A stretch of DNA of 41,279 bases, taken from a virus. The translations under genes were made by a program, and so were the position numbers. The stretch spans positions 1 to 41,279 of IMG/VR virus record IMGVR_UViG_3300032282_003031, one strand, 5' to 3'. A model generated the notes under the pieces. The model ran no database searches and was not told the DNA's origin. It saw only the letters and a program-made list of their open reading frames with translations. Within the stretch, counting starts at the first letter, position 1. Every line of letters begins with the position of its first letter. Below, in pieces: positions 29,150-41,195 of the stretch.

Positions 29150-31294
29150 TCACTCCTTTGCGATCAGTTCGATGAAGCGGTTCAACATAACACGGGAAAC
29201 AAGATTCTTGTTCATTGCCTTGATGAATCCATTACGAATTCCAACATTCGATGTCTTGGTCGAAAGGATATCATCAAGGTCGTTGTTCTCCACCGAATTA
29301 TTCGCACGAATGATGAACTTCTCGTTGTAGAGATGGTTCTTCGGATTCGCAACAGTCCAACCTTCCTTGATGTACTGCTTGTTCTTCATATCGTAGACTT
29401 CATCGGAATAATTATTATCCATTCCGCTTTCACTTGCCATGTAGTAAGGAACCGAAGTCTTCTGATCGCAGAGGAAGAAGCAGATAGCCTTTGCTCCCGT
29501 CACTTCGCGGAAGATGTTGATGATGTTGGATTCGATGCTGTACTTGTGATTGATCTTGAAGTTGATGTTGTTCTTGATGCAATACGAATTGTTTTCAACG
29601 CGAACACCAGTTGCCTCGCCATCAGTGAGGAAGATGCTATGCACAATGTCAAGATTGTTTTCCTGCTTGAACTTGGGAACCATGTCCATTGCAGCCACGA
29701 TGGATTCGATCAGTGGCGTGGAAGACAAGTGCATCATTGAGGGAATGGTGAAGGCGTACTGGGATCGTCCCCTGTAATAACTTGAAACCGCAAACAAGTT
29801 GCGAATGGAAAGTTTGAACTCATTGTTGTTCATCTTCGATGAAATCAAGTTGACGAGGCTGAAAGCACAAACTGGATCGGAAGACTCAACACCCTCAATG
29901 CCATTAAAAATCTTTGCGTTGTTGTCTCGCTCCCAACTCTTGTTGAACCAAGTCTCGTACATATCAGAATGGTCATCAATGTCAAGACCACTGGGGCAAC
30001 GGGTTGTGAATCCGTAGACCTCAAACGGGATGTTGACACGCTTGCAGAAAAGTGCAAGTTGAATCAATTGCTTGAAAGTATCTTCAAGCACTGGCGACAT
30101 TGATCCCGAAAGATCGGTGTAGAAGACAAGACCGTGCGACTTGCCCTTCTTGACAACCTTCATACGAAGGAAGATATCGTCACTGACCTTGTAATTCATC
30201 ATGCGAACCGTATCAATCATACCAGTACGGTGAACGGTGTTGCGGTGATGATCCTGCGCTGCCTTCTTTGCCATGAACTCCTGTGCAAGAATGTTGACGA
30301 CACGATTGGATTCTTCAATGAACTTCTTGCTCTCATTAGAGAACTCGTCGTACTTTGAAGTACAACCGCTTGCGCAATGGTCGAAATCGCTGAGAAGGGT
30401 CTTGTAATCGTAGATGCTGTTGTTGTTGAACTTCGGGAGATGATGGTAATAAATATCGTTGGAATATTCATTACGAAGAGAATCAAAGTTCTTGTCAAAG
30501 TTCTGCTGAGTCAAGCACTCTTGCGGCATGACGGCGCGGGAAGACCAGTCACGATTGTTGTTCTTCTTGTCGGTGGAACCATTCTCCGACGAATCGGAAT
30601 TGTTTTCCGAATCTTCACCGTTGGAGTTGGAGACAATGTTGACCAACAGGTCATCCTGCTGAGTGTCGCTGTTATTCTTGTCCTTGCAGTAATTCCAAAT
30701 CTTCTTGGTCACTTCGACAACTTCATCGAAGGTGCGAGTGTTCTCGACCATGTTGACAAACTCCATCTCCTCGTCGGAGAAAGAAATCTGAACATGAGAA
30801 CCAATCTTGAAGTAAAGATTGATTCGGTCAATGAATGGCATCTCACTGATGTTCTTCTTGGCAATGCCGAAGAAATCCTTGTCATTCAACTCCTTGTATC
30901 CGACGAAGAAGTCACGACGAATACCCGCGAACTTCTCCTTGATGAGTCGTTCGATACGAGCATCCTCCACGACATTCATGTAGCCGTGCGCCCGACGAGC
31001 CATGTTCTTGTCGCCGTCCGCGATCTCTAGGGCAGAAGAAAGGAATCCATCGTTCTTGATGGACTCAAGATCCTTCTTGGTGAATGGAGTGTACAGCGCG
31101 TGAGCAACTTCATGCCCGACAAGCATATCGTACAACTCCTCACTCATTGCCTTGAAGACAGGCAGACGCAGGACGCGATTCATGATATCGAAAGAAGCAG
31201 TGGTTGCTTGCTTGTCGTGAATCACGAAGATGTTCTCAGTAGCCAACAGGCGACTGAGGAGCGACTTGGAATTCTTGTTGACTTGGTTTTCCAT
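29150..31294 (-). CDS. HExxH metallopeptidase-like plus VWA domain protein (CobT/DUF2201-like)
   Basis: 714 residues. Residues 61-65 read HEVAH inside LVGHEVAHALYTP, a zinc-peptidase motif. NVVEDARIE (about 107-115) supplies a likely third ligand, as in CobT-like and DUF2201-type proteins. An Asn/Ser/Asp-rich linker (about 215-250) separates this from a VWA domain whose MIDAS is DLSGS (about 394-398). The partner ATPase is encoded divergently, as in MoxR-VWA, RavA-ViaA and CobS-CobT pairs, which remodel or load metal into client proteins. The start is fixed by a promoter 6 nt before this ATG; an open frame continuing upstream runs antisense through the ATPase gene and is not coding. Similar pairs exist in other large phages without known role. 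Confidence 0.8.
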   Translation of the reverse strand: MENQVNKNSKSLLSRLLATENIFVIHDKQATTASFDIMNRVLRLPVFKAMSEELYDMLVGHEVAHALYTPFTKKDLESIKNDGFLSSALEIADGDKNMARRAHGYMNVVEDARIERLIKEKFAGIRRDFFVGYKELNDKDFFGIAKKNISEMPFIDRINLYFKIGSHVQISFSDEEMEFVNMVENTRTFDEVVEVTKKIWNYCKDKNNSDTQQDDLLVNIVSNSNGEDSENNSDSSENGSTDKKNNNRDWSSRAVMPQECLTQQNFDKNFDSLRNEYSNDIYYHHLPKFNNNSIYDYKTLLSDFDHCASGCTSKYDEFSNESKKFIEESNRVVNILAQEFMAKKAAQDHHRNTVHRTGMIDTVRMMNYKVSDDIFLRMKVVKKGKSHGLVFYTDLSGSMSPVLEDTFKQLIQLALFCKRVNIPFEVYGFTTRCPSGLDIDDHSDMYETWFNKSWERDNNAKIFNGIEGVESSDPVCAFSLVNLISSKMNNNEFKLSIRNLFAVSSYYRGRSQYAFTIPSMMHLSSTPLIESIVAAMDMVPKFKQENNLDIVHSIFLTDGEATGVRVENNSYCIKNNINFKINHKYSIESNIINIFREVTGAKAICFFLCDQKTSVPYYMASESGMDNNYSDEVYDMKNKQYIKEGWTVANPKNHLYNEKFIIRANNSVENNDLDDILSTKTSNVGIRNGFIKAMNKNLVSRVMLNRFIELIAKE

Positions 31295-31300
31295 GCCGCC

Positions 31301-31329
31301 ATTGTACCATGTACCCAATCCAAAATCAA
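31301..31329 (-). promoter_or_regulatory. Leaderless promoter of the VWA gene
   Basis: TTGATT, 17 bp, TACAAT with TGG extension, then 6 nt to the ATG. Divergent to the ATPase promoter; the two -35 boxes are 44 bp apart. Confidence 0.8.
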
Positions 31330-31373
31330 TGCATTGGTGGAAATTCTTTTTTTCGATTTGGTCTTCAATGGTA

Positions 31374-31402
31374 TTGACTCGCCAACGAATATCCTCTAAA
31401 AT
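31374..31402 (+). promoter_or_regulatory. Leaderless promoter of the AAA+ gene
   Basis: TTGACT, 17 bp, TAAAAT, 6 nt, ATG. The identical geometry on both strands supports both chosen starts. Confidence 0.8.
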
Positions 31403-31408
31403 GACGGC

Positions 31409-32620
31409 ATGAACTGCACAATCACCAACACGCAGCGTAAGTTCCTTATCGCACTGAAGAACAGTCGAGCCGCCAACAGCCGATCCAATGCAATCGTCAG
31501 CCGCGACGAACTTCTCGTTGCCTGCAAGATGCTTGATATGGTGGCTCCTCCGAATTGGATCGTGATGGATCATAGCCGCCGCATCGGGCGTGGGCTTTAT
31601 CGAATTGACGAGATTAATGATCTTGAGATCATTGACAGCAAGCAGGAAAATGATTATAATGAGCAAGCCATGAACAACACTGTACTCGAAGCAAAGACGA
31701 ATGTACTCGCAATGACCAACGGTGATCGTGATACGATCATTCCCACCATCTCGCAGGAGTATGTCCCTTGGGGACATTTCAGCGACATTGAATCTCTTCT
31801 GAAGTCGAAGAACTTCACGACCATCTACATCACTGGTCTGTCGGGCAACGGCAAGACCACGATGGTCGAGCAGATTTGCGCAAAGTTGAAGCGCGAGTGC
31901 TTCCGCGTGAACATCGTCGGTTCGACTGACGAGGACGATCTGTTTGGTGGTCTTCGCCTTGTGAACGGTGATACCGTTTGGCAGGATGGAGCCGTGATTC
32001 AAGCCATGCGCCGTGGAGCGGTGCTGCTGCTTGACGAGGTCGATCTTGGTTCGGAGAAACTTATGTGCCTTCAGCCCGTGCTTGAGGGCAAGGGCGTGTA
32101 CATCAAGAAGAAGAACGAGTGGATCGTTCCCGCCGATGGTTTCTGCGTTGTTGCAACTGCAAACACCAAGGGCAAGGGTTCGGAGGATGGTCGCTTCGTC
32201 GGAACGAACATCATGAACGAGGCATTCCTTGATCGCTTCGACTTCACCTACGAGCAGGATTACGCTCCCAAGACTACGGAGAAGAAGATTCTGACCAAGG
32301 CTATGAAGAAGTACGGTGTTGAGGATGACAACTTTGTCGAGCATCTTATCAACTGGGCAGAGATGATTCGCAAGTCCTACAAGGAGGGTGCGGTCAACGA
32401 GATCATCAGCACCCGCCGCCTCATCAACATCTGCAAGGCATATTCTGTGTTCAAGAACAAGGTCAAGGCAGTGAACATCAGCCTTGCGCGGTTTGACCGC
32501 GAGACGCAGGATGCCTTCATGAGCCTGTACAAGAAGATCGACGGCGATCTCCAAGCCGCCGTCGATGGTGCTGCGGCTTCCACCGAAGCCAAGCCCGCTG
32601 ATGAGGATGTTCCATTCTAA
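31409..32620 (+). CDS. MoxR/CobS-like AAA+ ATPase with N-terminal winged-helix-like part
   Basis: 403 residues. The first ~75 look like a small helix-turn-helix-type domain (RDELLVACKMLDMV, then GRGLYRIDE). The AAA+ core has Walker A GLSGNGKTT (about 143-151), Walker B LLLDEVD (about 206-212), sensor 1 region VVATANT, and the long KNEWIVPADGF hairpin of the MoxR/CobS group. The C-terminal 25 residues are Ala/Glu-rich. It most likely works with the divergent VWA protein as a chaperone-type or chelatase-type motor. CobS in cobaltochelatase is the nearest well-known analogue, but the other chelatase subunit (CobN) is not in this window. Confidence 0.85.
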   Translation: MNCTITNTQRKFLIALKNSRAANSRSNAIVSRDELLVACKMLDMVAPPNWIVMDHSRRIGRGLYRIDEINDLEIIDSKQENDYNEQAMNNTVLEAKTNVLAMTNGDRDTIIPTISQEYVPWGHFSDIESLLKSKNFTTIYITGLSGNGKTTMVEQICAKLKRECFRVNIVGSTDEDDLFGGLRLVNGDTVWQDGAVIQAMRRGAVLLLDEVDLGSEKLMCLQPVLEGKGVYIKKKNEWIVPADGFCVVATANTKGKGSEDGRFVGTNIMNEAFLDRFDFTYEQDYAPKTTEKKILTKAMKKYGVEDDNFVEHLINWAEMIRKSYKEGAVNEIISTRRLINICKAYSVFKNKVKAVNISLARFDRETQDAFMSLYKKIDGDLQAAVDGAAASTEAKPADEDVPF

Positions 32621-32642
32621 TGGAATAACCCAAGAAAAGATA

Positions 32643-32670
32643 TTGCTTTCACCAAATTTTTTGGTAGAAT
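32643..32670 (+). promoter_or_regulatory. Leaderless promoter (16-bp spacer)
   Basis: TTGCTT, 16 bp, TAGAAT with TGG extension, 6 nt, ATG. Weaker -35 than the rest of the series. Confidence 0.65.
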
Positions 32671-32676
32671 AAAGCC

Positions 32677-32934
32677 ATGAACAACAACGACACAACTACC
32701 GTTCCTTCCAATCCCGCACCTAGCAGCAAGGAGACTCTGATGAACTCTACTCTTCAGATTGAACTCTGCGATCTCGTTGAGGCTCGACTCAACAATGGTG
32801 AGCGTGTTACGATTCTCGCTCTCTCCAAGGAGAAGAACATTTCTCCCACCGAGATCCGCAATGCGCTTGTCGAGGTTTTCGGCAACCGCGTTCAATTCAA
32901 GCGTGGACGCACGGGTGGAATCACCCTCGTCTGA
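32677..32934 (+). CDS. Winged-helix-like small protein with two possible starts
   Basis: 85 residues. The C-terminal ~60 (VTILALSKEKNISPTEIRNALVEVFG, then FKRGRTGGITLV) read as a winged helix: helix, recognition helix, beta wing. The first 21 residues are a disordered Asn/Thr/Ser/Pro extension. The ATG used here is 6 nt from the -10 box (leaderless). An in-frame ATG at 32740 lies 6 nt after AGGAG and would give a 64-residue form by normal initiation. A transcription factor for this region is a reasonable guess. Confidence 0.65.
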   Translation: MNNNDTTTVPSNPAPSSKETLMNSTLQIELCDLVEARLNNGERVTILALSKEKNISPTEIRNALVEVFGNRVQFKRGRTGGITLV

Positions 32935-32964
32935 ACATGGTGGACTTTGTCTCCACAATATGAT

Positions 32965-32995
32965 CTTCTTGGAAGAAATTTCAAGAAGATTTTTG
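32965..32995 (+). terminator. Probable terminator
   Basis: CTTCTTG/CAAGAAG, a 7-bp stem with a 10-nt loop, followed by ATTTTTG. Moderate strength. Confidence 0.6.
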
Positions 32996-33018
32996 CTGAA
33001 CTCAAAGAAAGATTTTGG

Positions 33019-33024
33019 TACAAT
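33019..33024 (+). promoter_or_regulatory. Isolated TGG-TACAAT box
   Basis: Matches the -10 of the array, but the -35 position reads CTGAAC and only 2 nt separate it from the nearest ATG. Transcription would start inside the second codon, so either the real start codon is 33069 (AAGG lies upstream) or the promoter is non-standard. Confidence 0.45.
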
Positions 33025-33026
33025 AC

Positions 33027-33344
33027 ATGAACGACGATATCTCCAACAATGCGTACAAGGTTGCTTCGATGATTCACGACAACAGCCTGACAACGGATGA
33101 AGTTTTCTGTCCAACTCTCATTCTCAAGTTGTTCTCTGTTGTTGAGATGGCGCGTGGATTTGATGAAAACTTCATGTGCGATCTCTATGACACCTTGCGT
33201 GATTTTGCGCAAGCAGACCAAGAGTTTGAGGATGCGCTTGTCAAGTCCGAAGTCATGTGTTCGGATGAGATTTGGGGATTGCCCGAAACGGATGAAGAAG
33301 CCATCAATCAGGCAATCAATTGTCTCAAGCGTGGAGATTACTGA
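33027..33344 (+). CDS. Small acidic protein, start uncertain
   Basis: 105 residues (91 if initiation is at the second Met codon, 33069), acidic and helical, not recognised. The open frame is followed closely by a strong terminator. The exceptional spacing to the -10 box is discussed at that feature. Base composition is like the neighbouring small genes. Confidence 0.6.
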   Translation: MNDDISNNAYKVASMIHDNSLTTDEVFCPTLILKLFSVVEMARGFDENFMCDLYDTLRDFAQADQEFEDALVKSEVMCSDEIWGLPETDEEAINQAINCLKRGDY

Positions 33345-33365
33345 AAACAAATAAAAATAAATTTC

Positions 33366-33392
33366 AAGGACGGGTTATCCCGTCCTTTGTTA
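33366..33392 (+). terminator. Strong terminator
   Basis: AAGGACGGG-TTAT-CCCGTCCTT, a perfect 9-bp stem, followed by TGTTATTT. Confidence 0.85.
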
Positions 33393-33403
33393 TTTGGGCG
33401 CAA

Positions 33404-33415
33404 CACTATCAACAT
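33404..33415 (+). repeat. CACTATCAACAT motif, copy 3
   Basis: 17 nt after the terminator stem and just before the structured non-coding block. Followed by TT as in copies 4 and 5. Confidence 0.65.
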
Positions 33416-33423
33416 TTCGCAAA

Positions 33424-33693
33424 AGAAAACCTCCGCTATTTCCAATCCCGTTGCAACAGGAAAGGTCATGCGGAGGCTTCTGCCTCCAACTCATGGGCAT
33501 TTAATTACGATTCACGACCAACGGCTCAAGTTGGATTATATGGAGCCGTTGACCGCTAGAGGGCAGAAGTGGTATACCAGTGACTTCCGTTTTACGAGTG
33601 CGATTGTCCGCCGACATTCGCCGCCGCCTCTAGAGTATAGGAGGGTATCCCCTCCCCCGCACTAGGCTAAAACTCTGTTTATACTCACCTAGT
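33424..33693. ncRNA. Non-coding block with nested and mutually exclusive hairpins
   Basis: No credible reading frame. Stems seen: CCTCCGC/GCGGAGG (33430-33436 with 33470-33476) enclosing TTTCC/GGAAA; GGAGGC-TTCT-GCCTCC, which competes for the same GGAGG; CAACGGCTC/GAGCCGTTG (33519-33527 with 33543-33551); the palindrome TGGTATACCA; GGAGGG-TATC-CCCTCC (33640-33655); ACTAGG/CCTAGT (33661-33693). The competing pairs resemble a regulatory switch. No clear consensus promoter points into it, so strand and ends are unknown. The last hairpin may terminate the - strand genes to its right. Confidence 0.45.
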
Positions 33694-33697
33694 CGAG

Positions 33698-33916
33698 TCA
33701 AGGATAGACATCAATGATGTACCAATCCTCGCATGAATTCTTTTCAGAGAATTCCTCCTTCAACATTTCAGGAGTCATCTCACCCGCATAGAAGAAGATG
33801 TCATCATCATCTTCTATGTTCGGAACTTCTTCTGACAGAGCAATCGTAACGAAGTATTGGTTGTCAGGCTCGTCACGCCATGTGATCTCACAGGCAACAG
33901 TATTTGGGATGGTCAT
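33698..33916 (-). CDS. Small acidic protein, leaderless
   Basis: 72 residues, acidic (IEDDDDIFF), not recognised. TACAAT lies 6 nt before the ATG; the -35 is poor (TCGACA at 15 bp). Last gene of the - strand group. Confidence 0.6.
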   Translation of the reverse strand: MTIPNTVACEITWRDEPDNQYFVTIALSEEVPNIEDDDDIFFYAGEMTPEMLKEEFSEKNSCEDWYIIDVYP

Positions 33917-33922
33917 GTGCGT

Positions 33923-33949
33923 ATTGTATTAGTTAGTCGCTGCTGTCGA
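33923..33949 (-). promoter_or_regulatory. Leaderless promoter, weak -35
   Basis: TACAAT 6 nt before the ATG; TCGACA at 15-bp spacing is the best -35 candidate. The upstream gene's TAA stop lies just before the -10. Confidence 0.5.
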
Positions 33950-34208
33950 TGGTATGAACAAACCGCAGAACGGTGTTGTTGTTATCATCAACGGTGAATC
34001 CCTCGTAATGATTCATCTGACCACGCTGATTCTTCTCAATGTATTCGTTGCCAAACTCATTGATCGTATCAACAGGATGGACTCCCTCAACAATTACCGT
34101 GTAAGTCTCTTCGTTGTAGCAACGACCAAGATTCTTACAGGTATAGGTTTCAGAGAGAATGTTCAACTTACTTCTGTAAACGATCTTGGGGATTGGAATG
34201 TAGGTCAT
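33933..34208 (-). CDS. Small protein, leaderless
   Basis: 91 residues with mixed strands; YTCKNLGRCYNEETYTVIVEGV suggests a compact beta fold with two Cys. No family recognised. Its start is set by the promoter 6 nt upstream. Confidence 0.6.
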   Translation of the reverse strand: MTYIPIPKIVYRSKLNILSETYTCKNLGRCYNEETYTVIVEGVHPVDTINEFGNEYIEKNQRGQMNHYEGFTVDDNNNTVLRFVHTIDSSD

Positions 34209-34214
34209 GTCCGT

Positions 34215-34243
34215 ATTGTATCAGTTGGTTGCTGCGGATTCAA
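34215..34243 (-). promoter_or_regulatory. Leaderless promoter
   Basis: TTGAAT, 17 bp, TACAAT, 6 nt, ATG. The upstream gene's TGA directly precedes the -10. Confidence 0.75.
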
Positions 34244-34463
34244 CAGACTTCTTGCTGAAATCCGAAATCTTCGTCACGCTCAAAAATCCCGCACCGTTGC
34301 CTTCAGGATCGGCAAGACCAACAAGTTCGTAGGTCTTCTTGCCAACTTCAATGACCAAGCCCATGTAGACATCCCCATACGGGGAGGGATCTACGATGAT
34401 GTGCTTGACCTTGCCGCCAATCAGCGGCTTGAGAACCTTGATGTATGCTTCGTTGTTGTTCAT
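34221..34463 (-). CDS. Small beta-rich protein, unknown
   Basis: 80 residues (KVLKPLIGGKVKHIIVDPSPY start region, then YMGLVIEVGKKTYELVGLADPEG), looking like a small SH3-type or barrel fold. Third gene of a coupled set: its ATG overlaps the stop of the 32-residue gene (ATGA) and it has no promoter of its own. Confidence 0.6.
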   Translation of the reverse strand: MNNNEAYIKVLKPLIGGKVKHIIVDPSPYGDVYMGLVIEVGKKTYELVGLADPEGNGAGFLSVTKISDFSKKSVESAATN

Positions 34464-34558
34464 TCGTTGTTTCCAAAAAACTCACGATAAATGAAGATCA
34501 TTGCAAGAATTGCAAGGATCAAACTAACTCCGATTGAGATGATGATGTTGTAGTTCAT
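34460..34558 (-). CDS. 32-residue single-TM peptide
   Basis: Almost entirely one Ile/Leu-rich helix (MNYNIIISIGVSLILAILAM) with a short polar tail. Coupled by overlapping stop and start codons on both sides, which supports it being real. Role unknown. Confidence 0.6.
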   Translation of the reverse strand: MNYNIIISIGVSLILAILAMIFIYREFFGNNE

Positions 34559-34920
34559 CACTTGCCCTTGCGCTTCGGCTTCGGCTTCGGCTTGGACTTG
34601 TTGGTAAAGGCATTCTTGGTTTGTTCAAGAATGTCCTTGACCGTCACCTCAATATCCCGATGGTAGAAATACCAATCGTTGTTCTTGTTGGAGTCCTTGT
34701 TCCAATCCGACAAATCTTCAAACGAGATATCAGATTCTTCGATCATTCCATTGTCACGAATGTTCATGTAAGAATCTTCAAATTCACTGCAAATGTCATC
34801 AAACGAGGAAGTCTTCCAGACTGGAAAGGTGAAAGTCACCTTGACCATCTTGAGATCATCCACAGTGTATGTCTTGTTGATTTCGGACTGTTGAGGCTTT
34901 GGCATCTTCTTGAAATTCAT
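34558..34920 (-). CDS. Small acidic protein with Lys/Pro tail, SD-led
   Basis: 120 residues. The acidic middle (SFDDICSEFEDSYMNI, then ESDISFEDLSDWNKD) and a basic Pro-Lys repeat at the end (KPKPKPKRKGK) stand out. Unlike its neighbours it has a short leader of about 13 nt containing AAAGGA, so it is initiated normally. It heads a three-gene coupled unit. Confidence 0.6.
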   Translation of the reverse strand: MNFKKMPKPQQSEINKTYTVDDLKMVKVTFTFPVWKTSSFDDICSEFEDSYMNIRDNGMIEESDISFEDLSDWNKDSNKNNDWYFYHRDIEVTVKDILEQTKNAFTNKSKPKPKPKRKGK

Positions 34921-34939
34921 TGTGTTCCTTTGCTTGTGT

Positions 34940-34968: not shown

Positions 34969-34975
34969 GGGATGG
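34956..34975 (-). terminator. Terminator-like hairpin of the ncRNA unit
   Basis: A 7-bp G+C-rich stem with a 6-nt loop and no U-tract; a candidate 3' end for the - strand ncRNA. Its loop doubles as a promoter -35. Confidence 0.5.
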
Positions 34976-35204
34976 AGAGATCACCGCGACAATACCCGTT
35001 GTGTGCAGAACCGCGCGGTTTCCCTACGGGACTACCAGTTCTGCATACGCACTACCTCATTACGGGATATCTTACATCAGGACAAGTAGTATCCTGATGA
35101 TGCAGAGGGTTCTAATACTCTAGTCACCCACAACCTAATGCGTTATGTACAGAAATCGCAACCCTCTGTTCACATTCATGGTATGTGAAAGACCATTTCG
35201 TGCG
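34976..35204 (-). ncRNA. Structured ncRNA candidate (minus strand, about 230 nt)
   Basis: A consensus promoter with no start codon at the array position leads into DNA with no credible gene and three long inverted repeats in series: AACCCTCTG/CAGAGGGTT (9 bp, 35160-35168 with 35103-35111), CATCAGGA/TCCTGATG (8 bp, 9-nt loop, 35075-35099), and an 11-bp stem with one G-U pair between 35001-35011 and 35038-35048. The last encloses TCCC-TAC-GGGA and overlaps the palindrome AACCGCGCGGTT. It ends at a terminator-like hairpin. It is not a tRNA: no T-arm, no CCA end, no cloverleaf. No known RNA family recognised. Confidence 0.6.
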
Positions 35205-35210
35205 TGTCTT

Positions 35211-35239
35211 ATTGTAGACGCACCCCTACATAAAGTCAA
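35211..35239 (-). promoter_or_regulatory. Promoter of the minus-strand ncRNA candidate
   Basis: TTGACT, 17 bp, TACAAT. The TGA stop of the upstream gene is inside the -35. The predicted start is near 35204, and no ATG follows within the usual 6 nt. Confidence 0.75.
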
Positions 35240-35553
35240 GTCCTTTCCTTCACCAGTTCTTCGGCACAATCTTCAAACATATCCATGTAGATGCTGCGAA
35301 GATCGTTTGGAACATCCTCATCATCCTCGTAGATCGGCTCACCACTCTCATCGGTGACTGAAAGTACGAGAGTTACGCACTCGACCTCAATCGAATCCTC
35401 GTAGCGAGTTCCTGCGGACGCAAGGGGATAATCCCAAGAATCCCTAGTAACCGAATAGTCAATGATGACAGGGCAAGCGAATCCGTACACAGTCTTCCCA
35501 TTGTATTCAATGGGCTTGAACTCGTAGTAGTCGATTTCCAATTCCTTGTTCAT
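35236..35553 (-). CDS. Acidic small protein, leaderless
   Basis: 105 residues, beta-rich (YYEFKPIEYNGKTVYGFA, then SIEVECVTLVLSVTD) and acidic at the end. The start is set by the promoter; the frame is open further upstream but that part lies in the control region. No family recognised. Confidence 0.65.
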   Translation of the reverse strand: MNKELEIDYYEFKPIEYNGKTVYGFACPVIIDYSVTRDSWDYPLASAGTRYEDSIEVECVTLVLSVTDESGEPIYEDDEDVPNDLRSIYMDMFEDCAEELVKERT

Positions 35554-35560
35554 GTTCACC

Positions 35561-35589
35561 AGTTTATCAAGATTGCCGCGACGAGTCAA
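35561..35589 (-). promoter_or_regulatory. Leaderless promoter
   Basis: TTGACT, 17 bp, TAAACT, 7 nt, ATG. Divergent to the promoter that follows. Confidence 0.75.
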
Positions 35590-35624
35590 TGGGGTTGATG
35601 GAAAAAAATCCTTGGACAATCCTC

Positions 35625-35653
35625 TTGACAGGTTTTCAGCACTTCGATATAAT
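35625..35653 (+). promoter_or_regulatory. Perfect consensus sigma70 promoter
   Basis: TTGACA, 17 bp, TATAAT. Unlike the array promoters it leaves a leader of about 33 nt before the next ATG and lacks the TGG extension. Confidence 0.8.
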
Positions 35654-35692
35654 TTCTTTGTGGTATAAGAAGAAATAGGTTTCACAGAGAAC

Positions 35693-35932
35693 ATGGACGG
35701 TAATATGGATACGCCCAACAAATTCAACCTTCAAGGCTCAAAGTACCCACACGCATACGGTTACGGCTATCTCACAGCACTCATTGACTTCGTGGAGTAC
35801 AACGCTAGGATGGCTAAAGAGTTTCCTGACAGCGCGGACTTCTACCTTGATGAGATCATCAAAGCCAAGGAAGTGATGCTTGAACTCAAGAAAGCGGTGG
35901 ACTCCGCATCGGGGAATCTCAATGCACAGTGA
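35693..35932 (+). CDS. Small helical protein, unknown
   Basis: 79 residues, Tyr- and Lys-rich, helical C-terminal half (DFYLDEIIKAKEVMLELKKA). First gene of the + strand array. A second in-frame ATG at 35705 is an alternative start. It overlaps the next gene by 11 nt. Confidence 0.6.
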   Translation: MDGNMDTPNKFNLQGSKYPHAYGYGYLTALIDFVEYNARMAKEFPDSADFYLDEIIKAKEVMLELKKAVDSASGNLNAQ

Positions 35933-36092
35933 TTCCATCATGGCTGCTCTCAAGCAGATGCTTGAGGAACTGAATCCCAACGAGTTGATGATGGTCGAGG
36001 ATTTCATCGTCAACTTCTGTGAAGACTCTTATGTGGACGAGAACGGCAATCCGCCGAACATCTTCCGCATGATTATAACGGACAACCGTTGA
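35922..36092 (+). CDS. Small acidic helical protein
   Basis: 56 residues (MHSDSIMAALKQMLEEL start). GGGGA lies 6 nt before the ATG. Its stop is part of the next promoter's -35. An ATG 18 bases further on is possible. Unknown function. Confidence 0.6.
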   Translation: MHSDSIMAALKQMLEELNPNELMMVEDFIVNFCEDSYVDENGNPPNIFRMIITDNR

Positions 36093-36117
36093 CTCACACG
36101 AACCAAATTGGTACAAT
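36089..36117 (+). promoter_or_regulatory. Leaderless array promoter 1
   Basis: TTGACT, 17 bp, TACAAT (TGG extension), 6 nt, ATG. The preceding TGA stop is inside the -35. Confidence 0.85.
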
Positions 36118-36123
36118 TCCACA

Positions 36124-36336
36124 ATGATTGAACTGCTACAACTCATCGGAGTATGGACTCTTGTTGCGGGTGTTGTGTTTCTGCTCATCATCCCGATGAT
36201 CCTCTGCTCTGCCTACCATGCACTGGACTTCTACTTCTTCATTTGGAAGGAGATGAGTCATTCGTATGCAAAGCACAAGTATAGGCGGGTGGTCAAGGTC
36301 GAGGAGCCTGTTCAGGTGAATTCTTTGGATGCTTGA
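36124..36336 (+). CDS. 70-residue membrane protein
   Basis: One or two hydrophobic helices at about 4-33 (LIGVWTLVAGVVFLLIIPMI) with a basic cytoplasmic-type tail (YAKHKYRRVVKV). No family recognised. Leaderless start. Confidence 0.65.
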   Translation: MIELLQLIGVWTLVAGVVFLLIIPMILCSAYHALDFYFFIWKEMSHSYAKHKYRRVVKVEEPVQVNSLDA

Positions 36337-36361
36337 CATTCAAGAAGATGTTTGGTAACAT
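36333..36361 (+). promoter_or_regulatory. Leaderless array promoter 2
   Basis: TTGACA, 17 bp, TAACAT (TGG extension), 6 nt, ATG. Stop TGA inside the -35. Confidence 0.8.
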
Positions 36362-36367
36362 AGACAC

Positions 36368-36694
36368 ATGACTGATTACCAGTTCAAATCCTACACGCTT
36401 GCCAAGGAAACGATGGAAATGGCTGATGCGCCATTCAGCACGATAAATTCTTTCGTGTTCGTTACCGATACAAAGGAGCCAAATGTGGTGAGTATTTGGC
36501 GTTATCATAACCACAGCGAATTGAAGGCATCTTGCATAGTCAAGAGCAAAGTCAATGGCATGGAGATTGAATATCTTATCACACATGGTGATAAGTGCGA
36601 TATCTCCGTTGCTCGCTCCATTTGGAGGGGGTTGATGTCTCAAGGATTTGAAAGAGTGAAATACGGAGTTGACAACATGGTTCCGCTCCCGTAA
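36368..36694 (+). CDS. Small mixed alpha/beta protein, unknown
   Basis: 108 residues (FVFVTDTKEPNVVSIWRYHN, then SVARSIWRGLMSQGFERVKYG). No motif recognised. Its 3' end encodes the -35 of the next promoter, and its TAA stop is the first half of the next -10. Confidence 0.65.
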   Translation: MTDYQFKSYTLAKETMEMADAPFSTINSFVFVTDTKEPNVVSIWRYHNHSELKASCIVKSKVNGMEIEYLITHGDKCDISVARSIWRGLMSQGFERVKYGVDNMVPLP

Positions 36695-36697
36695 AAT
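36669..36697 (+). promoter_or_regulatory. Leaderless array promoter 3, inside the gene end
   Basis: TTGACA within codons, 17 bp, TAAAAT starting with the stop codon TAA, 6 nt, ATG. Confidence 0.85.
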
Positions 36698-36703
36698 ACC
36701 CTC

Positions 36704-37051
36704 ATGCAGAAAGTCATGGTCTACCGTAACCTCACCAAGAAGTGTTGGTCTGTCAAGGATCTGCGAACCAACAGGGTCATCATGCACTGCGACAATGTCT
36801 ATCTGACGCATTGCTTGTTCAAGGTTTCGCAGAAGGGCAGGGAGCGCGTTCTGCGTGAGAGGAAGAAGTATGTCCATGCGGGTGTTCGTGGCTATCTGTA
36901 CGATCCGATCAATGCATCGGAGTTTGTGCAAGTGCGCTACAATCCGTACCACAACGAATCGTTCGTTGATGTCGATGGCAAGCCAGTATACACGGCAGAC
37001 TGCGTTGCCCTGTTGGATACTGGCAAGGTTTACGCACAAAATGTGGCTTGA
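36704..37051 (+). CDS. Conserved-looking basic small protein
   Basis: 115 residues. The layout KVMVYRNLTKKCWSVKDL, RVIMHCDNVYL, KVSQKGRERVLRERKKYVHAGVRG resembles an uncharacterised protein seen in many phages and bacteria (from memory, unnamed). Basic, mixed alpha/beta, three Cys. The leaderless start is set by the promoter. Confidence 0.7.
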   Translation: MQKVMVYRNLTKKCWSVKDLRTNRVIMHCDNVYLTHCLFKVSQKGRERVLRERKKYVHAGVRGYLYDPINASEFVQVRYNPYHNESFVDVDGKPVYTADCVALLDTGKVYAQNVA

Positions 37052-37076
37052 CAGCCTCAAACCGAATTGGTAGAAT
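37048..37076 (+). promoter_or_regulatory. Leaderless array promoter 4
   Basis: TTGACA, 17 bp, TAGAAT (TGG extension), 6 nt, ATG. Stop inside the -35. Confidence 0.85.
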
Positions 37077-37082
37077 ACGCAC

Positions 37083-37298
37083 ATGACAACCACAGTCTAC
37101 ATTGACCCACCGTCAGGTTGGAAGTACGGCTTCCCGAAGAAGGCTCCCGACAACTTGAGGGAGATGAATGGAACCCATGTCAACGACTGGCTCGTTGACA
37201 ACGGATACCCCCGCGAGGAAGTGGAGTATTGGATGAACTCCCCCAAGTTTGGATTTGTTCCATGTCGTTTTGTTGAAATGAACGACACAGAGAATTGA
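37083..37298 (+). CDS. Small protein, unknown
   Basis: 71 residues, Pro-, Asn- and Trp-rich (YIDPPSGWKYGFPKKAPDNL). No motif recognised. Leaderless start. Confidence 0.6.
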   Translation: MTTTVYIDPPSGWKYGFPKKAPDNLREMNGTHVNDWLVDNGYPREEVEYWMNSPKFGFVPCRFVEMNDTEN

Positions 37299-37323
37299 CA
37301 CCCGCGAACCATTTTGGTACAAT
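37295..37323 (+). promoter_or_regulatory. Leaderless array promoter 5
   Basis: TTGACA, 17 bp ending CGAACCATTTTGG, TACAAT, 6 nt, ATG. Stop inside the -35. Confidence 0.9.
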
Positions 37324-37329
37324 CATACC

Positions 37330-37605
37330 ATGAATCACGGCAACAACTTCAACAATTACTCCGATACGGGAAGCACTGGATTCACTCTCGCTTTTGCCAA
37401 CGGAATCACCGTTTCGATTCGTTGGGGAGAGTACAACTACTGCGATCAGGGTAAGACCACAGCCGAATGTGCTGCATGGTGGTCTGATGGCTCTTGGGTT
37501 CACATCGACGGCTTTGACTACGGTGCAGACGATGTTCTCCCCCACCTGACCGCTGACGATGTCGCCAAGTTCATCTACAACGCATCCAAGCAGCGGATGT
37601 ATTGA
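37330..37605 (+). CDS. Small acidic protein with aromatic clusters
   Basis: 91 residues, Asn/Tyr-rich start, then VSIRWGEYNYCDQGKTTAEC and WWSDGSWVHIDGFDYGADDV, a pattern typical of small beta-sandwich proteins. No family recognised. Leaderless. Confidence 0.6.
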   Translation: MNHGNNFNNYSDTGSTGFTLAFANGITVSIRWGEYNYCDQGKTTAECAAWWSDGSWVHIDGFDYGADDVLPHLTADDVAKFIYNASKQRMY

Positions 37606-37630
37606 CATTCCCGAACCCTTTTGGTACAAT
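37602..37630 (+). promoter_or_regulatory. Leaderless array promoter 6
   Basis: TTGACA, 17 bp ending CGAACCCTTTTGG, TACAAT, 6 nt, ATG. Stop inside the -35. Confidence 0.9.
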
Positions 37631-37636
37631 CATACC

Positions 37637-37918
37637 ATGACGAACGACGAACTCATCAAGGACAGGCAACTCGAAATCTTGACAGAGGCTTTGGAGAAGC
37701 GTGATGCTGAACTTGAGCGGTGTGGTCAACTGATCTTCGATCAGAAGAAGACGATTGGGCGATTGGTCGAGGAGAGGGATTCCGCACGACGAGACTACTG
37801 CTACTATGTGGCAGCAGATCGTTCGGGTAGCCCCAACAACGAACCATACTGCGACAAGACCTCTGCGGTCAAAGTTGCCGTTGAAATGGGATGGGATTGT
37901 TTCCCTGAACTGTGGTGA
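37637..37918 (+). CDS. Coiled-coil small protein
   Basis: 93 residues. The first ~60 are a charged helix with heptad-like pattern (RQLEILTEALEKRDAELERC, then IGRLVEERDSARRDY). The last 30 (YYVAADRSG, then CFPELW) resemble the end of the next gene's product, so the two may be paralogues. The frame is open upstream, but the promoter fixes this start. Confidence 0.65.
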   Translation: MTNDELIKDRQLEILTEALEKRDAELERCGQLIFDQKKTIGRLVEERDSARRDYCYYVAADRSGSPNNEPYCDKTSAVKVAVEMGWDCFPELW

Positions 37919-37921
37919 GTA

Positions 37922-37950
37922 TTGACAGCCTCCAACAGAACTGGTAGAAT
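37922..37950 (+). promoter_or_regulatory. Leaderless array promoter 7
   Basis: TTGACA, 17 bp, TAGAAT (TGG extension), 6 nt, ATG. Here the preceding stop lies 3 nt upstream of the -35 rather than inside it. Confidence 0.85.
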
Positions 37951-37956
37951 ACCAAC

Positions 37957-38322
37957 ATGAACAACGAGAACAACATTCCGATGACCGCTTCGCATATGCT
38001 GTTCCATGAACTCGTTGCCAACAACGGGGCGAAACAGGACAACATGAATCTTGCAGAGGCAATGGAAGAGATCAAGAGGCTCCGTTCTCTCAATGCCAAG
38101 ATGAACGACCAACTGCGGGAACTGCATAGCGAGATCGAACACATCGAAGGGCAGTATGGCTATGCCATGTTTCAGCGGGATCAGATTAGGTATGACTACT
38201 GCATCCTCCGCTCAAAGCAGGAATTTGAGAATGAGGAGGATGTTCTGAACAACGCAAAGGATCTTGCGGCATCCTACGGATGGGACTGTTTCACATGGAA
38301 GGAAACTCCCAAGAAGGATTGA
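37957..38322 (+). CDS. Coiled-coil small protein, probable paralogue of its neighbour
   Basis: 121 residues, helical coiled-coil (AEAMEEIKRLRSLNAKMNDQ, then REL..EIEHIEG). It ends with RDQIRYDYCILRSKQ followed by AASYGWDCFTW, matching in layout the SARRDYCYY and EMGWDCFPELW end of the gene before. Suggests tandem duplication and divergence. Unknown role. Confidence 0.65.
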   Translation: MNNENNIPMTASHMLFHELVANNGAKQDNMNLAEAMEEIKRLRSLNAKMNDQLRELHSEIEHIEGQYGYAMFQRDQIRYDYCILRSKQEFENEEDVLNNAKDLAASYGWDCFTWKETPKKD

Positions 38323-38347
38323 CACCCCCGTACCCTTTTGGTACAAT
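38319..38347 (+). promoter_or_regulatory. Array promoter 8 (10-nt gap)
   Basis: TTGACA, 17 bp ending CCTTTTGG, TACAAT, then 10 nt to the ATG, leaving a leader of about 3 nt. Stop inside the -35. Confidence 0.85.
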
Positions 38348-38357
38348 AGGAACACAC

Positions 38358-38867
38358 ATGGGCTACTACATCAACACTCGTTTTACCTCGTTCGCCATTC
38401 TCACCAAGAATCTTCCCCGTTTCTTTGACCTCGTTGACAATCTGATGAGCGACAAGAACATCAAGAAGCATGGAAACGGAGGATCGTGGCAAGGAAATAC
38501 TCAAATGAAGTCTTGGTTCTCTTGGGTGAACACCGATGCTGTCCGCAAGGCATCTGCCAACAAGGACATCGTTGCGGTGTTCGATGAGTGGGGCTATGAA
38601 CTCACCCTTCTCACCGACGAGTGTGGAGTTTCAGCCTACAGCCTCAACATTCGCAACGGGAATGCCAAGATTGGTGACGAAGAGAAGTTCTTTGCCGCAA
38701 TCGCTCCTGTGGTTGAGGATGGCTCGTTCATTGATGTTGTTGGCGAGGACGATCAAGAATGGCGTTGGATGTGGGAGAACGGCAAGTTCTTCTCGCAGAA
38801 CATCATCGAAAAGAACATTGTCTTCGGTGAGCCGAACGAAATCAAGTTCAGCGGCATCGGTAAGTGA
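38358..38867 (+). CDS. Small alpha/beta protein, unknown
   Basis: 169 residues. The opening MGYYINTRFTSFAILTKNL and the sequence of strands and helices with acidic, Trp-rich end (DDQEWRWMWENGKFF) suggest a ferredoxin-like or YubB-type small-protein fold seen in mobile elements, by impression only. The frame is open upstream; the promoter sets this start. Largest protein of the array. Confidence 0.65.
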   Translation: MGYYINTRFTSFAILTKNLPRFFDLVDNLMSDKNIKKHGNGGSWQGNTQMKSWFSWVNTDAVRKASANKDIVAVFDEWGYELTLLTDECGVSAYSLNIRNGNAKIGDEEKFFAAIAPVVEDGSFIDVVGEDDQEWRWMWENGKFFSQNIIEKNIVFGEPNEIKFSGIGK

Positions 38868-38896
38868 TTGACAGCCCCGAACCCTTTTGGTACAAT
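38868..38896 (+). promoter_or_regulatory. Leaderless array promoter 9
   Basis: TTGACA, 17 bp ending CGAACCCTTTTGG, TACAAT, 6 nt, ATG. The preceding TGA abuts the -35. Confidence 0.9.
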
Positions 38897-38902
38897 ACCA
38901 TC

Positions 38903-39193
38903 ATGGCAAACACTATGGACATCCACAAACTTCTACCCTTCAAGGTAAACGGCGAGTTTGATTCTCCATACTCGTTTCGTGCCATGATCCATCAGGATTT
39001 CGTCTATCCCGATGGAACAGAGACAATCCTGCAAACCCTGTTCCCTCCATACCAACTTCATAGTGTGGATCATAAGGCAGACTTCAATCGTCTGCTGAAT
39101 GCCCAACTTACTGAACTTCGGGAAGGTGGAGTTACAGTCCGCAAGGTGATTGTGTTGCAGGGTGGAAAGCCCATCTACGACTTTGTTCCTTGA
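38903..39193 (+). CDS. Small protein, unknown
   Basis: 96 residues, Phe/Leu/Pro-rich N-terminal half, strand-rich C-terminus (VTVRKVIVLQGGKPIYDFVP). No family recognised. Leaderless. Confidence 0.6.
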   Translation: MANTMDIHKLLPFKVNGEFDSPYSFRAMIHQDFVYPDGTETILQTLFPPYQLHSVDHKADFNRLLNAQLTELREGGVTVRKVIVLQGGKPIYDFVP

Positions 39194-39218
39194 CAGCCAC
39201 GAACCCTTTTGGTACAAT
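39190..39218 (+). promoter_or_regulatory. Leaderless array promoter 10
   Basis: TTGACA, 17 bp ending CGAACCCTTTTGG, TACAAT, 6 nt, ATG. Stop inside the -35. Confidence 0.9.
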
Positions 39219-39224
39219 ACCGCC

Positions 39225-39689
39225 ATGCAGCACACCACCTACGCAGTTTCGCTCTCTGCCATTCCACACAAGAAGGGTGATTTCGGAATGCCCTACCACA
39301 CTTTCGAGGACTTCGATATGCCGAAGGTGTACGCCTTGATTACTCCGATCAACCAGTACGGTATGAAGCGGGCAAGGGTGTACACACCGAACCCGTGGTA
39401 TCCCGACAACATTGGTTTCTACGACTGGATTTGGTCGAAGGACGATGGCATTTGGCGCAGGACGCAGGGTGGGACTTTCAAGACCATCCAAGAAGCCCGT
39501 GCCGATTGGAAGAGGTGGAAGGTTGAAGGATGCTGCACTCCGCAGGATGTGATTGCGAACCCTCTCAACGGAGAGCCTAGCGAACCGTGGGATGAGTTTG
39601 CGAACCACTTCTGCCCTGCGGGAACCTATGGGTTTCACGAACTCATTCGCACCTACGGGAACGATTACCCGCGCAAGAAAGTGGGTTGA
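39225..39689 (+). CDS. Trp/Tyr-rich small protein, unknown
   Basis: 154 residues, rich in aromatics and Pro (ARVYTPNPWYPDNIGFYDWI, then DWKRWKVEGCCTPQDV). No motif recognised. Its stop is part of the strong promoter that leads into the large ncRNA candidate. Confidence 0.65.
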   Translation: MQHTTYAVSLSAIPHKKGDFGMPYHTFEDFDMPKVYALITPINQYGMKRARVYTPNPWYPDNIGFYDWIWSKDDGIWRRTQGGTFKTIQEARADWKRWKVEGCCTPQDVIANPLNGEPSEPWDEFANHFCPAGTYGFHELIRTYGNDYPRKKVG

Positions 39690-39714
39690 CAGAAACCAAG
39701 GGGCATGGTATAAT
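39686..39714 (+). promoter_or_regulatory. Perfect consensus promoter without a gene start
   Basis: TTGACA, 17 bp, TATAAT with TGG extension: the strongest of the series. No ATG at +1; predicted start near 39721. The upstream TGA stop is inside the -35. Confidence 0.9.
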
Positions 39715-39720
39715 AGCCCC

Positions 39721-40200
39721 AACGACAGGTCTTTGACAATCGAATAGCCAAACCCTCTTCTTTGAGGAATTCCATGAGGCATCGACCTCATACGCTGACT
39801 GGGAGACAGGAAAAGCACAAGGGACGCACTCAAAGTAAGAACTTTCTTTCCAATTTTGAATAGTTCAAACCCTTCAGAGCAAGGTAAATAGGACAGTATT
39901 CAATAGTTGGAAACATTTCAATTTCTTGAGGAATCTAATATTCCATATAAAGGCTGTATGTTTCTAATGGAGTATTTGTTATTCGTGGAATAACTAGACG
40001 CACTCAATGGGATTGAATAGACTTGATGTAGAGGGGAGAGAGAAAGAAACTAGAAGAAGTAAATGAAGGTAAAGACTCACTGAAAGTAGTAACTTCTTTC
40101 AGAGAACCCTTCAGACCGCACTCTAGTCCTCTTCTCTCTCCCCCTCCATCGGTCACTAGGAAATGGAAATAAAGTTATGAAACCGTAAAAGTTTCATAGA
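39721..40200 (+). ncRNA. Large structured ncRNA candidate (about 480 nt)
   Basis: No credible reading frame but many stems in order: ATGAGG/CCTCAT (39774-39791); AAAGT/ACTTT (39832-39845); TTTGAA-TAG-TTCAAA (39855-39869); AATATTCCAT with ATGGAGTATT, one G-U (39937-39976); GTTATTC-GTG-GAATAAC (39978-39994). Then a long nested arm: GAGGGGAGAGAGAA (40031-40044) with 40132-40146 (one bulge), ACTAGA/TCTAGT, TGAAGG/CCTTCA and CTGAAAG/CTTTCAG inside it; finally TATGAAAC/GTTTCATA (40176-40198). The nested arm alone is over 30 bp. A GACGCACTCAA unit occurs twice, and two copies of a hairpin-bearing segment (CACT-x-AAAGTA) recur. The 3' end is not defined by a U-tract. The build resembles the ornate large RNAs of phages in style, but I cannot assign GOLLD, ROOL or another family. 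Confidence 0.65.
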
Positions 40201-40283
40201 GGTGGACAAAATGGCAGTTGAGTGGTCAAATATGCCAAAATGGCAGTCAATGTGGTGTTGGGGTCACGGTTTTAGTGCCGTCA
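40201..40283. other. Short intergenic region with repeated AAAATGGCAGT
   Basis: AAAATGGCAGT occurs twice about 30 bp apart, the second forming a small TGCCA-AAA-TGGCA hairpin. It could be an operator or the 3' end region of the ncRNA or of the convergent gene. Nothing else seen. Confidence 0.35.
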
Positions 40284-40574
40284 CTATAATTCACCAAGCG
40301 GCTTTATCGACCGTATAAAGCCCTTTGGGATCTTCTCCACACTTGAAAGACCCCCCGAATGCCATGACCGTATAAGCGAGATATGGCTGTCTGATTCAAA
40401 GACAACATACCCTACTGAACGGACAACTGGGCAATCTCTTCCTGCTTCATTGATGACATCATCAGGGTCATTCCAACCCAAATCACCCGCTTCTTCAGCG
40501 TCGATCCAAATGACTTCCACAATGGAATACTTCGGGTTCGATTGAGTCAAGGTAACTCCCGTCTGCTGCGTCAT
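40284..40574 (-). CDS. Small acidic phage protein, unknown
   Basis: 96 residues. The run VEVIWIDAEEAGDLGWNDPDDV followed by VRSVGYVVFESDSHISLIRS matches a small uncharacterised protein type met in many phages (from memory). Convergent with the ncRNA. The late promoter ends 35 nt from this ATG. Confidence 0.65.
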   Translation of the reverse strand: MTQQTGVTLTQSNPKYSIVEVIWIDAEEAGDLGWNDPDDVINEAGRDCPVVRSVGYVVFESDSHISLIRSWHSGGLSSVEKIPKGFIRSIKPLGEL

Positions 40575-40609
40575 ATGCGGATATCAGTCCGTCTATGGTC
40601 ATGCCCTCC

Positions 40610-40617
40610 TATTTATA
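40610..40617 (-). promoter_or_regulatory. T4-type late promoter (minus strand)
   Basis: TATAAATA followed after 7 nt by another ATG (40602) that opens a 35-residue frame overlapping the 96-residue gene in a different frame. The first frame may be a leader peptide, or simply chance. Confidence 0.65.
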
Positions 40618-40656
40618 GGGTCATTCTACCATAAATCGGAAAGTTTCTCAAGTGGG

Positions 40657-40685
40657 CTAATGTAAGACGCGACCCATGAGATAAT
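40657..40685 (+). promoter_or_regulatory. Variant leaderless promoter with CTAATG block
   Basis: CTAATG, 17 bp, GATAAT, 6 nt, ATG. The 18-bp block CTAATGTAAGACGCGACC is repeated exactly at the same place before the last gene, replacing the TTGACA-type -35. Confidence 0.7.
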
Positions 40686-40691
40686 AGACGC

Positions 40692-40841
40692 ATGAACACC
40701 GATCCCGATTCATTCTCCTTCCGCCTTCGCCACACCATCGACCTCCTTGAGTACGAGACGCAGCAGGGCATCGAAGACTGGACTCCCACCATCACCCGTC
40801 TGCGGGAGGTGCTTGCGGAGGAGGTTGCTGCGGGGCGATAA
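40692..40841 (+). CDS. 49-residue leaderless protein
   Basis: A charged helical protein (HTIDLLEYETQQGIEDW, then ITRLREVLAEEVAAGR). The -10 box 6 nt before the ATG and a hairpin over its stop support it. Codon use is rich in G and C at third positions, like the last gene. Confidence 0.65.
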   Translation: MNTDPDSFSFRLRHTIDLLEYETQQGIEDWTPTITRLREVLAEEVAAGR

Positions 40842-40846
40842 GCCCC
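40832..40846 (+). terminator. Hairpin overlapping the stop codon
   Basis: GGGGC-GATAA-GCCCC; the TAA stop is in the loop. No U-tract, so a weak terminator or RNA end stabiliser. Confidence 0.45.
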
Positions 40847-40856
40847 CCCTCCCCTG

Positions 40857-40868
40857 CACTATCAACAT
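40857..40868 (+). repeat. CACTATCAACAT motif, copy 4
   Basis: 10 nt after the hairpin over the stop codon and 29 bp before the next CTAATG block. Followed by TT. Confidence 0.65.
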
Positions 40869-40896
40869 TTGGCTTCGGAAATCTTTCGCTTTCCCC

Positions 40897-40925
40897 CTAA
40901 TGTAAGACGCGACCTGTGGTACAAT
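40897..40925 (+). promoter_or_regulatory. Variant leaderless promoter with CTAATG block, copy 2
   Basis: CTAATG, 17 bp, TACAAT (TGG extension), 6 nt, ATG. Confidence 0.75.
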
Positions 40926-40931
40926 ACACCC

Positions 40932-41195
40932 ATGACCAAGACGCATTACACCGCTTGCTACACCATCGAAGGTCACATCGACACCACCCTGCTTCAAGAG
41001 GAGTGCAAGATCCTCACGGGTTCGTGGGCGGGGAACATTGAGAAGCACGGCAACCCCGACATCACCAACTTCACCATCAGCGACACCGTGGAGGAGGGCA
41101 TCGACCCCGATGGGTACTTCGACCAGATCGGACGCGATCTGTCGCGCTACATCAAGTCGCCTGTCATTCTGGCAGAAATCTTCGTGGACGATTGA
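40932..41195 (+). CDS. Small acidic protein, leaderless
   Basis: 87 residues, beta/alpha mixed (THYTACYTIEGHIDTTLLQEE, then DEE-rich end), not recognised. The frame is open upstream to 40869 but the promoter fixes the start. High G+C at third positions. Confidence 0.65.
   Translation: MTKTHYTACYTIEGHIDTTLLQEECKILTGSWAGNIEKHGNPDITNFTISDTVEEGIDPDGYFDQIGRDLSRYIKSPVILAEIFVDD

Follow-up and report, generated by a model that had tools for sequence, protein, structure and literature searches.

We analyzed a 41,279-nt stretch of viral DNA (IMG/VR record IMGVR_UViG_3300032282_003031, positions 1 to 41,279), a 41 kb fragment of a virus record that we refer to as the window. Its right arm (31.3–41.2 kb) most probably holds an array of early genes that act as autonomous leaderless units, each on a promoter/start linker of ∼35 nt, a reading to which we assign a probability of about 0.82. 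Sixteen genes on both strands, named here by their start positions, show exactly 6 nt between a sigma70-type −10 box and the ATG: 31294, 33916, and 34208 on the minus strand, and 31409, 32677, 36124, 36368, 36704, 37083, 37330, 37637, 37957, 38903, 39225, 40692, and 40932 on the plus strand. The same spacing recurs in related phages, Shine-Dalgarno (SD) sites are lacking, the starts share a bias in initiator and early codons, orthologous genes switch between promoter-start and SD linkers, and linkers before neighboring genes are near-copies of one another.

An earlier note, made from the sequence of the window, had proposed ∼18 such units on both strands, and every start was found where it had been placed. 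The 6-nt distance stood at the 16 units given above, whereas the description of nearly every gene as having TTGACA and TGG was too generous: exact TTGACA occurs in 9 of 18 units and TGG ahead of the −10 box in ∼12, the other −35 boxes being TTGACT (three units) or weak to absent. Chance is excluded as the source of the promoter-start pattern in the window. The strict pattern TTGACA-N15–19-TANNNT-N3–12-ATG gave 10 matches against 0.57 expected, and none of 100 shuffles reached 10; TNGTANNAT-N5-CATG likewise matched 10 times, against 0.11 expected from shuffles, each time at the start of an array gene. All 15 matches of TANNNT-N6-ATG in 31.2–41.3 kb were gene starts.

A TANNNT box with its first T ∼12 bp before the start codon is the published signature of leaderless genes (PMC3160421; Zheng et al., 2011). 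Because a 6-nt box and a 6-nt distance add up in these units, their first T falls at ∼12 bp, and 16 of the 18 units agree with the signature, one of them having GATAAT. Across the window and seven array contigs, promoter-like sites before open reading frames (ORFs) lay at 6 nt in 94 cases and at 7 nt in 15, with a mean of 2.2 at other distances up to 40 nt. None of the 98 units compared had an SD site upstream. C directly preceded ATG in 86 of 98 units, compared with 26 of 123 genes that have an SD site in these phages and with 25% when every ATG of the arrays is counted, so that CA(+1)TG would be the natural initiator. The sequence logo of the units showed an extended −10 element (TGn) and a C-rich spacer. 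The A+C fraction of nucleotides 4–21 was 0.77 in units versus 0.59 in SD genes (p = 1e-14), with G halved, AAC and ACC were the commonest second codons, and the 5′ ends of units fold more weakly than those of SD genes. CA repeats that follow the start codon reportedly enhance the translation of leaderless mRNA (PMC9031893).

Scanning a virus collection of 2.9 million contigs with the window's linker pattern at 6 nt uncovered the same arrays in related phages: the scan yielded at least 119 stretches, compared with 47 in all and no arrays for a 9-nt control. Whole records, most of them fragments, were located by this pattern or by a second linker pattern. Arrays of 5–19 units were present in G001 (146 kb, ∼18 units), G002, G003, G004, G005, G006, G009 (117 kb, 14 units), G047 (137 kb, 14 units), G048, and G054, and reversed-pattern controls on array records gave 0 or 1. 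G016 (154 kb), found via its ribonucleotide reductase (RNR), has an array too. Free variation of the −10-to-ATG distance, which had been named beforehand as the outcome that would speak against leaderless units, was not seen in the array-bearing phages. UvsX of the array records with a match (G001, G002, G005, G009, G016, and G047) was 65–85% identical to that of the window, and cobT and cobS were near the arrays wherever seen on the contig. A tree built from UvsX gathered the array phages in one weakly supported group of 14 rows, separate from isolates that are pelagiphages, methylophages, or cyanophages; the array-less G014 sits within this group. The T4-like isolates HTVC008M and Melnitz (SAR11, OM43) had no 6-nt peak, with one site each at 6 nt. 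Fixed spacing in relatives, the CA(+1)TG context, the lack of SD sites, and the recurring arrays all favor the proposal of a dedicated set of leaderless single-gene units in a T4-like phage.

The predicted linker would consist, in order, of TTGACA (its TGA often the upstream stop codon), a C-rich 17-nt spacer ending in TG(G), TACAAT or TATAAT, six A/C-rich bases ending in C, and ATG. In the tandem run at 36.1–39.7 kb, the TGA of the −35 box was read by eye as the stop codon of the preceding gene at 8 of 11 junctions. The modal gap between stop codon and ATG is 31 nt, found in the TGA-overlap cases at 6 nt; the junctions contain the promoter only, and no terminator-like hairpin was found on the plus strand of this run. 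The median product of the units is 91 amino acids (aa). Within one genome, unrelated neighboring genes have linkers that nearly repeat one another: 11 pairs reach 75% or more within contigs, compared with 4 between contigs (permutation p < 0.001). This would also fit an element whose main role is regulation or recombination, such as an operator, an activator site, or a mobile cassette; recent copying of this element together with its start codon would then explain the fixed distance. Between genomes, however, spacer and discriminator are ∼37% identical while the −35 box, the −10 box, and the 6-nt distance are retained, indicating that selection, not recent copying, maintains the spacing; the 6-nt form is also found on both strands and in cobT and cobS orthologues. 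We consider a mere copied site very unlikely, and cassette copying and leaderless starts are mutually compatible.

Orthologues with two kinds of start provide a further line of evidence. Orthologues of 37330 and 37957 in the array-less G020 (contig L045) begin at the matching ATG behind an SD linker, AAGGAAACACACA or AAGGAGAAACACACA, as does the 37330 orthologue in the array-less G014 (contig L059) behind GAGGAAACTCACA. The start codons of 37330 and 37957 are thus supported by homology, with the linker exchanged. The match of 37637 in G020/L045 is weaker, with an SD-like start as well. In G002, the orthologues of 37330, 37637, 39225, and 40692 all have a promoter-start linker at 6 nt. Among cobT orthologues (26–63% identity, 51 distinct starts), the promoter-start form accounted for 34 of 51, with 29 of these at exactly 6 nt, and 12 had an SD site only, some leaderless calls with 3 of 6 matches in the −35 box probably being due to chance. 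We tentatively propose, at somewhat less than even odds, a separate early programme of interchangeable linkers, in which a gene becomes an autonomous leaderless unit through a promoter-plus-start cassette, and its orthologue in a sister phage becomes an operon member through an SD cassette (stop-AAGGAAACACACA-ATG). In the array-less contigs L387 (G014) and L044 (G020), a standardized SD linker, AAGGA(A/G)..ACACA-ATG, stands ahead of many small genes as the counterpart of the leaderless linker. Marine contigs L014–L057 (∼30–36% GC) mostly have cobT with GGTACAYTTTTT-TATAAT-N6-ATG. On the same contigs, cobS often has a 5′-terminal AUG 11–13 codons ahead of an SD-led start, which makes cobS counts in the marine relatives ambiguous; two starts could be used on one mRNA.

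Leaderless genes average ∼19% in Actinobacteria and ∼39% in Deinococcus-Thermus (PMC3160421). If the host of these phages were equally leaderless throughout, the arrays could be a matter of ordinary compactness in which phage mirrors host, with no dedicated programme, and homologues of the accessory genes do point to actinobacteriophages. However, replication and late genes of the same genomes use SD sites and TATAAATA promoters, mostly with leaders, which confines the leaderless mode to one arm. In the window, the replication and nucleotide genes at 1979..9350 (plus strand) have ordinary leaders. Moreover, the homologous regions of isolates with array-gene homologues (Arthrobacter phages Tank and Beagle, Mycobacterium phages Kimona and Rebeuca) showed no 6-nt peak. 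Compactness alone is therefore an unlikely explanation. Within the arm, the statement that internal genes have normal SD sites applied to some of them and not to all; 34919, with a 19-nt leader and AAGGA, and 35693, with a leader of ∼45 nt, are other exceptions to the unit pattern.

Given that homologues of array genes occur mostly in actinobacteriophages, the sequence data suggest an actinobacterium (Actinomycetota) as host of the array phages. Homologues of 38358 were from Arthrobacter phages in 9 of 10 records, and those of DUF7178, an array gene of G009, from Mycobacterium, Gordonia, and Rhodococcus phages in 79 of 80, both counts coming from a phage collection rich in actinobacteriophages; homologues of 36704 were mainly from mycobacteriophages. 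The earlier note had suggested that leaderless mRNAs might allow translation by 70S ribosomes when host initiation is altered. We found nothing in the sequence to indicate such alteration, and a simpler account would be a host, probably an actinobacterium, in which leaderless mRNA is translated as a matter of routine.

Several observations weigh against an array of autonomous leaderless units. The distance is 7 nt at 35553 (minus strand) and 10 nt at 38358 (plus strand), both as noted earlier, and 33027 breaks the rule with a −10 box just 2 nt from ATG. The −35 box is weak or absent in 6 of 18 units (31294, 32677, 33916, 34208, 40692, and 40932). When all arrays are taken together, a frame of at least 60 codons ends at the promoter TGA in 23 of 95 cases, compared with 11% of other TGAs, a lower share than in the tandem run. 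Most array contigs besides the window were fetched by a pattern that fixes the 6-nt distance, such that at least one unit in each was selected for it. Transcription could start 1–3 nt away from the A of ATG. As to the identity of the host, no direct link to a host was found, the window has no tRNA genes, and a WhiB gene, an actinobacterial marker, was absent from 22 records, which speaks neither for nor against an actinobacterial host. A search of bacterial genomes with the RNR returned mostly Patescibacteria RNRs and short contigs of metagenome-assembled genomes and was uninformative on the host; UvsX was not found among the top six RNR-match contigs, so none of these was T4-like. Finally, an in-frame SD site with a start (ATG or GTG) at most 30 codons downstream was present in 11 of 98 units. 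The promoters might then be real but the leaders short, with a later in-frame codon and its own SD site as the true start, and 33027 must indeed begin downstream if its promoter is real. Yet 11 of 98 is not above the internal control (15 of 81), the orthologues in array-less phages begin at the matching ATG behind an SD site, and C at −1 and the A/C-rich bias single out this very ATG. We give hardly any credence to such later starts.

Under the leaderless-unit interpretation, host RNA polymerase with the main sigma factor would take the A of each ATG as the first base of the mRNA (CA+1TG), and ribosomes of a host that probably translates such mRNA well would use the 5′-terminal AUG without an SD site, aided by an unstructured, A/C-rich start (ATG-AAC/ACC...). 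Inner genes on a read-through transcript would have no ribosome site, so that each gene would rely on its own promoter and expression would be set gene by gene. A unit would thus be a plug-in cassette whose insertion, loss, or inversion would leave the tuning of its neighbors unaffected. Early timing is probable because the promoters here are of host type and those of late type lie elsewhere.

Among known systems, the T4-type early promoters and mobile promoter cassettes (PeSL) that Arbiol et al. reportedly described in 2010 are said to combine a promoter and a stem-loop, leaving a leader with an SD site. They resemble the present case in that small accessory genes are accompanied by numerous strong sigma70 early promoters and that unrelated genes have regulatory cassettes in common; in contrast, the linker described here consists of a promoter alone and stops at the start codon, and no promoter followed by a stem-loop was found between genes at 36.1–39.7 kb on the plus strand. 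Leaderless genes of Actinobacteria and Deinococcus-Thermus share a TANNNT box beginning ∼12 nt ahead of the start codon, the lack of SD sites, and a start at or near the 5′ end (PMC3160421), the last predicted here from sequence. They differ in being a scattered fraction of a cell genome, whereas here the units have a good −35 box and an extended −10 element and form a contiguous viral array. Leaderless transcriptomes of mycobacteria are attributed to Cortes (2013) and Shell (2015) as cited in PMC11855218. The start-associated sequence (SAS) and extended SAS (ESAS) of cluster K mycobacteriophages, GGGATAGGAGCCC, contain an SD-like AGGAG and lie 3–7 bp from the start (Pope et al., 2011; PMC3203893). 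They too are repeated at a short, nearly fixed distance before starts of small non-structural genes, but SAS carries the SD-like AGGAG and the element here is a promoter; GGGATAGGAGCCC had no match in the window at up to two mismatches. Lambda, as cited in PMC3160421, offers a single leaderless phage gene whose mRNA likewise starts at the start codon, in contrast to an array of ∼5–19 here. The components are known: leaderless genes as such, the TANNNT box at −12, early promoters in T4, and repeats associated with start codons. No description of a phage array made of leaderless early units was found among the open-access papers searched.

The arm opens with a divergent pair, both leaderless as judged by sequence. 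The cobT-like/peptidase family gene (phrog_459; 29150..31294, minus strand) follows a promoter at 31295–31329, TTGATT-N17-TACAAT-GGCGGC-ATG, whose 6-nt start is kept in many orthologues, and the cobS-like AAA ATPase gene (phrog_249; 31409..32620, plus strand) follows a promoter at 31374–31408. Next on the plus strand is a predicted leaderless unit of 85 aa (32677..32934) with a −10 box TAGAAT, a weak −35 box, and TGG, the G002 orthologue also standing behind TTGACA..TAGAAT. On the minus strand lie putative leaderless units of 72 aa (33698..33916; TACAAT-ACGCAC-ATG) and 91 aa (33933..34208; TTGAAT-N17-TACAAT-ACGGAC-ATG) and the 105-aa unit at 7 nt (35236..35553; TTGACT-N17-TAAACT-GGTGAAC-ATG). 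A Pistol ribozyme (RF02679; 33633–33698, minus strand; 42.3 bits against a cut-off of 34.5) lies directly downstream of 34208 and 33916 and may serve to trim their mRNA at the 3′ end; the Rfam scan of the arm gave, besides this, a spurious mir-14 match only. Positions 35000–35240, between minus-strand genes, are non-coding, with a promoter-like TTGACT-N17-TACAAT (35239–35211, minus strand) and no Rfam match.

The tandem run on the plus strand consists of predicted leaderless units apart from the one at 10 nt. It begins with 36124..36336 (TTGACT-N17-TACAAT-TCCACA-ATG), where the stop codon of the upstream ORF is the TGA of the −35 box; the same overlap is found at 36368..36694 (TTGACA-N17-TAACAT-AGACAC-ATG), 37083..37298 (TTGACA-N17-TAGAAT-ACGCAC-ATG), 37330..37605 (TTGACA-N17-TACAAT-CATACC-ATG), 37637..37918 (its linker 83% like that of 37330), 38358..38867, and 39225..39689. 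The product of 36704..37051 (TTGACA-N17-TAAAAT-ACCCTC-ATG) is a homologue of mycobacteriophage L5 gp82 (PF25735). For 37957..38322, the G020/L045 orthologue has the same N terminus behind an AAGGAG linker. The 169-aa unit 38358..38867 has TACAAT-AGGAACACAC-ATG, and the linker of 38903..39193 is 87% like that of 39225. A consensus promoter, TTGACA-N17-TATAAT (39686..39714, plus strand), is not a leaderless unit; it closes the tandem array, with ∼570 nt without evident plus-strand gene after it. The stretch 39715–40283 behind this promoter, where the mir-14 match lies, includes a long inverted repeat at 40031–40145 and is possibly a phage non-coding RNA. Two further putative leaderless units follow, 40692..40841 (49 aa, −10 GATAAT) and 40932..41195 (TGG-TACAAT-ACACCC-ATG), both on the plus strand. 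They have CTAATGTAAGACGCGACC in common, standing where a −35 box would be, perhaps as an activator site.

The left part of the window encodes a T4-type gp43-like polymerase, UvsX, a primase, Thy1, and a class II RNR, and this polymerase, UvsX, and primase-helicase module places the phage in the T4 superfamily (Straboviridae/Kyanoviridae relatives). Among the window proteins searched, none was identified as a head, terminase, or tail protein of T4 type, and fuller relatives were not searched for them. Of 11 T4-type TATAAATA late promoters in the window, 10 lie left of 29 kb. An ORF of 133 aa at 22455 (minus strand) has a TATAAATA late-type box just 5 nt before ATG and is possibly a leaderless late gene. 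A chimeric join, considered because GC rises from 0.36 to 0.48, was rejected as the cause of the array since G001, G002, and G009 are independent contigs that pair T4-type core genes with the same arrays. In the array pieces compared, GC is 0.40–0.55, against 0.32–0.42 for the remainder of G001. Phage tRNA genes (Lys-TTT, Leu-CAA/TAA, Arg-TCT, Ile-TAT, and others) were found on L215 (G001), L208 and L219 (G009), L209 (G005), L218 (G006), and L115 (G004), a set that suits the AT-richer late genes; the early arrays are GC-richer.

If the array is what it appears to be, it would be the first described phage programme with a whole early gene set leaderless, as far as the open-access papers searched show. 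Sister phages provide leaderless and SD versions of orthologous genes, a clean comparison that is usually confounded by gene identity. Phage gene callers that seek SD sites may miss or misplace such genes, and the linker would be a ready-made minimal promoter-start part for hosts favoring leaderless mRNA. If linkers are interchangeable, as we tentatively propose, early takeover genes could be translated by a route other than the SD-dependent one that serves replication and late genes, and separate regulation would be possible.

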